A stretch of DNA of 64,000 nucleotides. Source: Sphingobium sp. (lineage in GTDB: Bacteria; Pseudomonadota; Alphaproteobacteria; Sphingomonadales; Sphingomonadaceae). The notes under the pieces were generated by a model. It saw only the letters and a list, made by a program, of their open reading frames with translations, was not told the DNA's origin and did no database searches. Made by a program: the position numbers and the translations under genes. Shown in pieces: positions 18,800 through 47,165 of the stretch. Numbering within the stretch: position 1 is the stretch's first letter; every line of letters starts with the position of its first letter. Location of the stretch: NCBI GenBank assembly GCA_023266575.1, contig JAHFPV010000001.1, forward strand, positions 283,152 through 347,151, in the 5' to 3' direction.

Positions 18800-18878
18800 C
18801 ATCCGTTCGTTTCGAGCGAAGTCGAGAAACGCTGGCGCTGCGTTACAGTTTCTCGACTTCGCTCGAAACGAACGGATG
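18800..18878. repeat. Perfect ~31-bp inverted repeat (CCGTTCGTTTCGAGCGAAG family)
   Basis: Arms 18800-18830 and 18848-18878 are perfectly complementary around a 17-nt spacer. It lies between the stop of the acyltransferase gene and the stop of aguB. The same core returns at 47058-47129, so this is a dispersed family. It may also act as a bidirectional terminator or RNA-stabilising stem, though no T-run follows. Confidence 0.85.
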
Positions 18879-30525: not shown

Positions 30526-30564
30526 CGCTCATCTCCTTGTTGATTGTCGATGCGATGCAGGGAC

Positions 30565-30591
30565 AACGGGAGGAGGCAGGCATTTCATCCC
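30565..30591 (-). promoter_or_regulatory. Candidate ECF-sigma promoter for the low-complexity protein gene
   Basis: On the minus strand, GGGATGAAA (30591-30583), a 14-nt spacer and CGTT (30568-30565). Both elements and the spacing are identical to those in the 31936-31969 palindrome. The implied transcript start is about 30 bases before the start codon, which has an AGGAGA ribosome site. Confidence 0.6.
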
Positions 30592-30625: not shown

Positions 30626-31864
30626 TCAGTCATTATTTCTGCATGTGGCGCAGATGATACCCTGGCCGAAGCCGCGCGCCTTGCCCATTGGCGCTTCTGC
30701 TTCGGCCCGCAGCGCGGTCAGGCTGCCCCGCGCCAGCAACCGCCCGGCGACGAGCGGCGCGGCAAAGCTGGTGCCGCGCACCGCGCCCTTGCCGCCATCG
30801 CTTCGCGCCGCGTTCATATCCGCCCCCGGCGCGGCAAAATCGACATGGGCGGCGGGCCCGGCTTCGGGTAGCAGCCGCCCGCGCCCGTCGATCCCCGTGA
30901 CAGCAATCACCCCGGCATAGGAGGCGGGATAGGCGGGGGGTGCGGCCGGGCCATCATTGCCGACGGCGGCGACCACGGTAACGCCCTTGTCGCGCGCCAG
31001 CCGGATCGCGCCTGCCAGCAGCGGATTGTCCGGCCCGACCAGACTGACCGTGACGACCGGCACCCCGCGCGCCGCCATCCAGCCCAGAGCGCGCACGATC
31101 GCAAAGGCGCCGCCGCCAGCCGGATCGTCGCCATAGACGTCAGCGACCAGCAAAGCCGCGCCCGGTGCCGCGCCGCGCACGCTGCCCGTGCCGCTGATCA
31201 GCGAGGCTACCGCCGTGCCATGGGCGCTGGCCCTTGGCGCACCGCGCGCAAAGCCGCGCTGTTCGATCGGCCCGCTCAGCGCCGGATGCCGCGCGACCCC
31301 GCCGTCGATCAGCCCTGCCGCGCCGCGACCGACCGTGCCGCTGCTTGCCAGTCCTCCCGCCGCCGCGCCGCTGGCTGACCCACCGGGGAAATAAAGATTG
31401 TCGGCGCTGGCCTGCGCCTTCGGGGCGATGCGGCGCACATCTTTCAGCGCCCGCGCCAGACTGCGACCCTGTGGCACTTGCAGCCGTGCGATGCTGAGGC
31501 CCAGCCCCTCCACCGCCTCGCTCTCTACGCCAAATCCCGCGGCCCTCAGCGCATCCAGACTGGCTGCATCCGCACCGGTCAGCAATATCACCCCGCGCCG
31601 TGCCGGCTCACGCCGGTCGTCCAGCTCGACCATATCGCCATGCCGCCGGAGCAGATCGCCGATCCGCGCCGCCCGCGCCGCGATCAACGTATCGGCCAGC
31701 CGTGCCGGAGATAGGCGCTCCAGCCCGCTGCTTTCAATAACGCCACCGACCTGGTCCAGCAAATCGGGTACGACCTGGCCTACCGGACCGCCCAGCAATT
31801 GCGCCTGCGCGCCCGGTGCGATCAGGATCAGCCCCGCGATCATCCATGGGCGGGTCAGTCTCAT
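30626..31864 (-). CDS. Secreted S8-family (subtilisin-like) serine peptidase
   Basis: 412 residues from the ATG at 31864 with GAGAG upstream. A signal peptide ends GAQA-Q, the mature protein starting QLLGG like the neighbouring low-complexity protein. A pro-region fills about 30-160. The catalytic triad is D187 (LIDGGV), H215 (ASAHGTAVA) and S366 (RGTSFAAP), with N303 in VGNDGP. The catalytic domain is short, about 220 residues. The tail carries two cysteines in CATC. It is divergent from an ECF sigma factor and appears to share its promoter palindrome. Its substrate might include the anti-sigma factor or the low-complexity protein, but this is conjecture. Confidence 0.9.
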   Translation of the reverse strand: MRLTRPWMIAGLILIAPGAQAQLLGGPVGQVVPDLLDQVGGVIESSGLERLSPARLADTLIAARAARIGDLLRRHGDMVELDDRREPARRGVILLTGADAASLDALRAAGFGVESEAVEGLGLSIARLQVPQGRSLARALKDVRRIAPKAQASADNLYFPGGSASGAAAGGLASSGTVGRGAAGLIDGGVARHPALSGPIEQRGFARGAPRASAHGTAVASLISGTGSVRGAAPGAALLVADVYGDDPAGGGAFAIVRALGWMAARGVPVVTVSLVGPDNPLLAGAIRLARDKGVTVVAAVGNDGPAAPPAYPASYAGVIAVTGIDGRGRLLPEAGPAAHVDFAAPGADMNAARSDGGKGAVRGTSFAAPLVAGRLLARGSLTALRAEAEAPMGKARGFGQGIICATCRNND

Positions 31865-31935
31865 GTCGCTCTCACCGGTCCTTTCGGGTGCATAATGATC
31901 CATCGCACAAATATTTCCGTTTTTTCTTCGGCTGT

Positions 31936-31969
31936 GGGATGAAACGACCGGGCAGGCCCGTTTCATCCC
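31936..31969. promoter_or_regulatory. Bidirectional ECF-sigma promoter embedded in a perfect inverted repeat
   Basis: GGGATGAAACG (31936-31946) and CGTTTCATCCC (31959-31969) are perfect inverted arms around 12 nt. On each strand this reads GGGATGAAA, 14 nt, CGTT, so one strand's -35 is the other strand's -10 region. The plus promoter faces the sigma gene (start 31993), the minus promoter the subtilase (start 31864). The same bipartite motif with the same spacing precedes the gene at 29908-30525. Confidence 0.65.
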
Positions 31970-31992
31970 CGGAACATGTGATTGGAGGCCCG

Positions 31993-32481
31993 ATGTCGTT
32001 CGAGCATGATTTGCTGGCGATCCTGCCCAGGCTGCGGCGCTTTGCCGCCAGCCTCTCGCGCGATCGTGCCGATGGCGACGATCTGTGCCAGGCCGCGCTG
32101 GAGCGGGCGCTCAAGGCGCGCGACCAGTGGCAGCCCGGCACCCGCCTCGACAGCTGGATATATAGGATCATGCGCAACCTGTGGATCGACGAAGCCCGCG
32201 CGCGTCAGCGGGCCGCCAAAACCTTTGCCCCGGCAGAAGCGGGCGAGCATGTCGGCCATGCAGGCGACCGGGATATAGAGGCGCATGTCCATCTGACCGA
32301 CGTCGACCGGGCGATGCAGGCGCTGCCCGACGAACAACGCGAGGCTATCGCGCTCGTGCTGGTGGAGGGGCTGTCCTACAAGGAAGCCGCCGCCGTGCTG
32401 GGGGTGCCGATGGGGACGCTGACGTCGCGGCTGGTTCGCGGGCGCGGGGCGCTAATCGAACTGATGGGGGAAGCGGCATGA
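31993..32481 (+). CDS. ECF-type RNA polymerase sigma factor
   Basis: 162 residues. Region 2 spans about 10-75 (DGDDLCQAALERALKARDQW, then SWIYRIMRNLWIDEARAR). Region 4 spans about 105-155 (LPDEQREAIALVLVEGLSYK, then GVPMGTLTSRLVRGR). There is no region 1.1 or 3. The ATG at 31993 has GGAGG upstream. It is coupled to an anti-sigma gene by a 4-bp overlap. Probable targets are itself, the divergent subtilase and the low-complexity secreted protein, from a shared promoter motif. Confidence 0.94.
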   Translation: MSFEHDLLAILPRLRRFAASLSRDRADGDDLCQAALERALKARDQWQPGTRLDSWIYRIMRNLWIDEARARQRAAKTFAPAEAGEHVGHAGDRDIEAHVHLTDVDRAMQALPDEQREAIALVLVEGLSYKEAAAVLGVPMGTLTSRLVRGRGALIELMGEAA

Positions 32482-46811: not shown

Positions 46812-47165
46812 GCGGGGCACACTCCATCAGGCGCGCATCGGTCGGGTGACCGATGCGGTGCAGGTGTTTCCAGCCTTTTGGAAAATCATCGAAGCGAGAG
46901 GTTCGACCGGCATAGGGGGTTCAGGTCGAAGCGAGGCCGCCCCGGCCATATGCCGAGAACGGCATATGGGGATGATGCACCGCGATTCTTAGGGGTGCGC
47001 GTAAATGAGGGAGAGCATCCCCCCGAACCCCTCTCCAGCGCCGGACGTTATTCACTTCCTCCGTTCGTTTCGAGCGAAGTCGAGAAACTGCGCGCGACCG
47101 TTCTCGACTTCGCTCGAAACGAACGGAGGTTGAGGCTCAATCTGAAGTAAGGCTAATCCAGACGA
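46812..47165. other. Gene-free region with a 10-bp-arm hairpin
   Basis: No open frame with coding character was found. It contains CCATATGCCG-agaa-CGGCATATGG (46946-46969), a perfect stem-loop with no following T-run, and the long inverted repeat listed separately at 47058-47129. It lies downstream of cysH and upstream of the GT14 gene, so the GT14 promoter should be here. Confidence 0.6.
47058..47129. repeat. Perfect 29-bp inverted repeat, same family as 18800-18878
   Basis: Arms 47058-47086 and 47101-47129 are perfect complements. The core CGTTCGTTTCGAGCGAAG is identical to that in the repeat near aguB. It is located 37 bases beyond the cysH stop. Confidence 0.85.

Follow-up and report, generated by a model that had tools for sequence, protein, structure and literature searches.

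An ECF sigma factor gene, a probable anti-sigma factor gene, a divergent subtilase gene and a gene for a Gly-rich secreted protein are arranged about a symmetric site of 34 bp in the DNA analysed here (the window, meaning the whole stretch of 64,000 nucleotides; Table 1). P0001 is a short protein with sigma-70 regions 2 and 4 only, as is typical of ECF sigma factors. P0002, encoded downstream, is assigned mainly by position; its NCBIfam anti-sigma match is weak (E 3.8e-5, 23 bits against a cut-off of 225), and a Pfam search returned no match. The subtilase P0003 is taken to start at 31864, where the N-terminus resembles a signal peptide; a longer minus-strand ORF of 446 aa that starts within the palindrome was set aside. 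P0004 has no family match in Pfam or NCBIfam. Just past the likely signal-peptide cut, P0003 (31864-31780) and P0004 (30525-30440) have QLLGG in common, possibly as a shared processing or sorting tag. Elsewhere in the window, two closely similar perfect hairpins at 18800-18878 and 47058-47129 (arms of 31 and 29 nt) are perhaps a repeated terminator or REP-like element.

Table 1. Genes and predicted promoter elements of the locus, in window coordinates
Feature	Position	Strand	Basis
ECF sigma factor P0001, 162 aa	31993..32481	+	Sigma70_r2 1.7e-14, Sigma70_r4_2 3.3e-14
Probable membrane anti-sigma factor P0002, 229 aa	32478..33167	+	Position, weak match, hydrophobic stretch by eye
Secreted subtilase P0003, 412 aa	30626..31864	-	Peptidase_S8; signal peptide by eye
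Gly-rich low-complexity secreted protein P0004, 205 aa	29908..30525	-	Signal peptide by eye
Symmetric site, 34 bp: two interlocked divergent ECF promoters (predicted)	31936..31969	.	Sequence
Predicted sigma promoter -35 (GGGATGAAA)	31936..31944	+	Pattern match, arm conservation
Predicted sigma promoter -10 (CGTT)	31959..31962	+	Pattern match
Predicted subtilase promoter -35 (GGGATGAAA)	31961..31969	-	Pattern match, arm conservation
Predicted subtilase promoter -10 (CGTT)	31943..31946	-	Pattern match
Predicted third promoter, same type, non-palindromic, upstream of the Gly-rich secreted protein	30565..30591	-	Pattern match, conservation

The symmetric site is composed of the arms GGGATGAAACG (31936-31946) and CGTTTCATCCC (31959-31969), which are 100% complementary and are separated by a spacer of 12 nt (31947-31958). 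A sequence-only reading of the window had placed an inverted repeat exactly here and had read it on both strands as GGGATGAAA-N14-CGTT. Both points are correct: the pattern matches exactly at 31936-31962 (+) and, offset by 7 bp, at 31943-31969 (-). Its only other exact match in the window, at 30565-30591 (-), is the non-palindromic third copy described in the same reading. The genome search proposed there as a check finds these three exact matches only in the 3.62-Mb genome; allowing a single mismatch adds three sites, and the reversed control has one. The final AA of the sigma-side -35 and the CG that follows form the predicted -10 of the subtilase promoter, and the two -10 elements (31943-31946 and 31959-31962) are 12 bp apart. 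Because the AA that closes each -35 is read on the other strand as the TT of the opposing -10, the arms must take the form AAACG/CGTTT with a 12-nt spacer. By analogy to the 9-nt spacing past CGTT at the SMa0142 promoter of Sinorhizobium meliloti (PMC6180224), the sigma transcript is predicted to start near 31971 and the subtilase transcript near 31934, about 37 bp apart and beyond the arms; a third-site transcript would start near 30556.

The statistics of the window cannot carry the case for this site, since chance alone would produce such repeats. The window has 23 listed inverted repeats, of which the palindrome is one, and about 0.5-1.2 perfect 11-bp inverted repeats with a gap of at most 30 are expected in 64 kb. 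With up to two mismatches the promoter pattern has four window matches against a shuffle mean of 1.26, and four are reached in 5 of 100 shuffles. Across genomes, the exact palindrome with any N12 is found in 38 stretches of a species-level genome collection, with about 0.01 expected in 257 Gb, and 37 of the 38 lie between homologues of the ECF sigma/anti-sigma pair and a divergent subtilase. The sole exact palindrome outside this gene context (L009 5516-5549, Bifidobacterium contig) is a hairpin whose 14-bp arms enclose a loop of 6 nt, and its surroundings have no sigma or subtilase matches.

Fused and non-fused loci

Loci chosen by sigma similarity, and not by the site, give an account of how often the interlocked (fused) form occurs. 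A sigma protein search of 147 genomes of the order matched 71 at E 1e-25 or better. All 21 with a match at E 1e-46 or better, a cut chosen after a gap was noticed in the list (the next match is 1.1e-38), have a divergent subtilase and the site, with 0-5 mismatches of 22 and a 12-nt spacer; nine other loci examined alongside have 9-11 mismatches to the site. Close relatives with the genes but without the arms, named beforehand as an outcome that would count against the two-promoter reading, were looked for, and none of the 21 is such a case. The locus is far from universal, as 126 of the 147 genomes are without a sigma match at this cut.

The order matches and a class-wide search (386 genomes, up to nine candidates scored per genome) provide 85 loci selected by sigma alone, fetched from among the listed sigma matches. 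Of these, 25 are fully interlocked with a 12-nt spacer, always with N14 between -35 and -10 in both directions, and 60 are not fused. The 25, with 37 loci selected for the exact palindrome, make up 62 fused loci, of which the 25 unselected ones are those that bear on conservation. Among the non-fused loci, 28 of 60 combine a match to a divergent subtilase with a score of at least 15.4 for the sigma-side site. In 20 of the 28, the best opposite-facing site scores at least 18 and is non-overlapping, with an offset of -33 to -181 (fused loci, +6); of the remaining eight, L113 has a reverse site that overlaps but is weaker (score 17.1, offset -3). The scoring weights were set after the sequences had been inspected, and scores of at least 18 occur in 0.07-1.6% of 400-nt Markov sequences. 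The subtilase match of the 28 loci begins at least 374 bases from the sigma start, a distance that could hold an intervening gene. The -35 is GGAAT in 41 non-fused loci scoring at least 17.5; among fused loci GGAAT occurs in L109, a diverged second copy of the system in one genome (G110), which is likewise fused and combines a GGAAT arm with a GGAAG arm.

The 55 fused rows of a sigma tree built from 115 proteins form one side of a single branch (SH-aLRT 95), and each row on that side has the fused site. The tree is unrooted and was built by a quick method without bootstrap, with seven partial or near-duplicate fused loci left out. The fused form appears to be derived, descended from a separate back-to-back pair, because GGAATA is the cross-species ECF26 -35 given in the sections of PMC6180224 drawn on here and the non-fused form is spread over many families. 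On the same tree, the locus of a MAG contig labelled Stagnimonas (Nevskiaceae; L020) nests among sphingomonad sequences, a placement that may reflect transfer or misbinning.

Residue 144 of the sigma factor (window 32422-32424) directly precedes the SR of the region 4 helix and is a candidate -35 specificity residue. It is Met in 41/41 non-fused GGAAT loci scoring at least 17.5 and Thr, Asn or Ser in all 55 fused loci counted, one of which is GGAAT; in five non-fused loci with another -35 it is Thr in three and Met in two. As evidence, the link of residue 144 to the -35 was set aside: it is confounded by ancestry, with one independent pair on supported branches and four on all branches.

Third site and extent of the proposed regulon

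The third site precedes a Gly-rich secreted gene whose product has AQ(L/I/V) at the signal-peptide junction (by eye). This arrangement is present at 47 of the 62 fused loci, with 30 from the palindrome-selected set of 37 and 17 from the unselected 25. The total includes L008, which has two identical promoter cores and was read by the script in flipped orientation. Six of the seven selected misses have at most 1303 bases of sequence on the third-site side, and the seventh (L034) has the third site and no ORF by the rule of the script. In eight of the unselected loci (L081, L082, L084-L087, L109 and L143) no third site was found at the usual place. In four genomes (G080, G035, G097 and G119) the -35 is GGAAG in place of GGATG at 11 of 12 locus sites, the third site included, and GGACG at the twelfth. 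This shift is a concerted change and counts as a single event within one genus. A further promoter of the same type is located at +1743, +1794, -2402 and +1750 from the palindrome in L080, L084, L085 and L087, respectively, where it precedes a secreted protein of 113-115 aa, by sequence a probable extra member of the regulon.

The pattern GGATKAAA-N14-CGTT, surveyed in 20 genomes with T-type sites (the four GGAAG genomes left out), has 58 matches, 51 within 2.5 kb of the locus and seven elsewhere, with one in the reversed control. A degenerate palindrome, written after the sites were known, is found in 20/147 order, 5/386 class and 10/397 phylum genomes (the three samples overlap). All matches are at sigma loci found by the protein search, and the control gives 0. 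The degenerate pattern fails to match the G080 locus and the first G110 locus, both fused, and is absent from G757, G766 and G821, which are congeners of G205 and G405.

Arm variation, alternative readings and proposed mechanism

In the 50 arms of the 25 unselected fused loci, positions 2-4 and 8-11 (GGA and AACG) are invariant and position 7 is constant in 49. The two arms of a locus agree at positions 1 and 6 as shuffling predicts (P 0.24 and 0.45); at position 5 they agree in 24 of 25 loci, and 0 of 5000 shuffles reach this value (uncorrected for relatedness). Such variation would be expected of two -35 elements read by one protein, and not of a hairpin or a symmetric operator. Positions 10-11, which are part of the opposite -10, are CG in all 50 arms; the same two bases are free in 44 standalone third sites, retrieved by a search pattern that left both unfixed. 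This invariance of CG only inside the palindrome supports the proposal of the sequence-only reading that each arm serves as -35 one way and -10 the other way. The -35 and -10 of the subtilase side are nearly as conserved as those of the sigma side. Exact palindromy is not itself conserved, because the arms are letter-identical in only 6 of the 25 loci; within positions 2-11 they differ in 10. Thus, the conserved property seems to be two interlocked promoters, not the exact palindrome. The spacers of the unselected fused loci have no complementarity that would extend the pairing of the arms.

Operators are usually shaped in this way, as an inverted repeat between divergent genes, and the palindrome could on this ground be bound by a dimeric regulator, with the promoters located elsewhere. 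Operator symmetry should resist change, yet the arms lack the symmetry expected of a dimeric operator, with the differences and the few identical pairs counted above. Upstream of the third gene lies a single, asymmetric copy in which -35 and -10 are spaced identically, and the separate sites of relatives agree in elements and spacing. An operator is improbable. A terminator or attenuator hairpin of RNA or DNA, in which the arms would pair as an 11-bp stem with a 12-nt loop, is more improbable by far: the arms often differ (in 10 of the 25 loci within positions 2-11), pairing does not continue into the spacer, and the predicted transcripts start beyond the arms, so that the hairpin would be in neither RNA. 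Both readings were rejected on the behaviour of the arms.

Another rival is that the site works as a promoter in the sigma direction alone, the other arm being kept for another purpose or firing weakly. The sigma-side -35 starts at -51 to -75 from the sigma start in fused loci and at a similar -43 to -95 in non-fused loci scoring at least 17.5, and the sigma side could therefore be the older, main promoter. The near-equal conservation of the subtilase-side elements argues against one-way use, as does a scan of the 62 fused loci that detected no other subtilase-facing site of the same type between palindrome and subtilase. S. meliloti, moreover, has a sigma factor that induces its divergent protease (PMC6180224). 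One-way use is given a slim chance, equal to that of the operator.

The 34-bp site is, with high probability, a pair of interlocked divergent promoters for the adjoining ECF sigma factor. RNA polymerase carrying the P0001 sigma factor would bind the site in either orientation. In one, the left arm would act as -35 and CGTT at 31959-31962 as -10, leading to transcription of the sigma and anti-sigma genes and, thus, to positive feedback together with its own brake. In the other orientation, the opposite strand of the same stretch would be read and the subtilase gene transcribed. The third copy of the promoter would drive the Gly-rich secreted protein, giving a compact, nearly single-locus regulon. 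Both promoters are predicted to depend on this sigma factor and to start transcription at the sites given above. Since each open complex would melt the -35 of the other direction, occupancy is expected in one direction at a time, and mutual exclusion of the two directions would follow from the overlap.

A more tentative proposal, held at somewhat less than even chances, is that the site is a dedicated orientation switch, in which each binding of the holoenzyme commits either to feedback, through sigma and anti-sigma, or to output, through the subtilase. If so, feedback and output would be coupled and self-limiting through competition, and the interlock of -35 and opposite -10 would represent a separate type of promoter maintained by selection across sphingomonads and Caulobacteraceae. 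The site provides a strongly conserved and minimal natural case of what is predicted to be a single promoter read both ways by one sigma factor. An obvious site at which to look for polymerase competition is an autoregulated ECF promoter; single base changes in an arm can test whether such competition is regulatory, with the non-fused relatives as a ready comparison.

Comparison with known systems

No description of this interlocked architecture was found in the literature searched (openly licensed papers). One of the nearest known systems is that of S. meliloti RpoE6, for which the statements here draw on selected sections of PMC6180224. Similarly to the present locus, it includes an ECF sigma factor, a downstream anti-sigma factor and a divergent serine protease. 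Overexpression of the ECF26 sigma factor RpoE6 induces the protease gene SMa0142 (log FC 4.7), the promoter of which, GGAATAGA-N13-CGTT, has a start mapped 9 nt past CGTT; with its GGAAT-like -35 and CGTT -10, it resembles the sites described here. The mapped promoter of rpoE6 itself resembles RpoD/RpoH promoters, and autogenous regulation is still argued for by the authors, as the downstream anti-sigma gene ecfR6 rises. Unlike S. meliloti, where the rpoE6 promoter as given in those sections is without the protease motif, the present locus has both directions sharing 34 bp.

The ECF26-type gene order is found in the window, with the Peptidase_S8 protein P0003 divergent and P0002 anti-sigma-like by position and weak match. 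Compared to the ECF26 motif (-35 GGAATA, -10 GT), the window agrees at the -10 and differs at the -35 (GGATGAAA). The suggested closeness to ECF26 comes from gene order and from the motif of non-fused relatives. As the -35 here is mostly GGATG, GGATT or GGAAG and that of ECF26 in the cited sections is GGAATA (PMC6180224), the pairing of sigma factor and motif rests on conservation and concerted change.

Bidirectional sigma70 promoters of Escherichia coli offer the second comparison, for which parts of Warman et al. 2026 (PMC12825309) are the source. In such a promoter the two directions have one -10 between them, the starts are often separated by 18, 10 or 23 bp, and only one polymerase fits at a time. 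In five that were tested, basal transcription is too low for competition, which arises once one direction is activated. As in E. coli, the site here is one short pseudo-symmetric stretch that is predicted to serve both directions. The palindrome does not have the shared -10 and the starts 10-23 bp apart of the sigma70 type: the -35 instead interlocks with the opposite -10, the predicted starts are about 37 bp apart, and, unlike the sigma70 case, one dedicated ECF sigma factor is predicted to be used for both directions.

The third comparison is with more distant, back-to-back relatives of the fused loci (L095, L131, L136, L137 and L149 among them), which have the same kind of motif, the sigma/anti-sigma pair and a subtilase further out. 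Unlike the fused loci, these have one promoter each way without overlap. The interlocked architecture is a variation on two known things, the autoregulated divergent ECF promoter and the bidirectional promoter.
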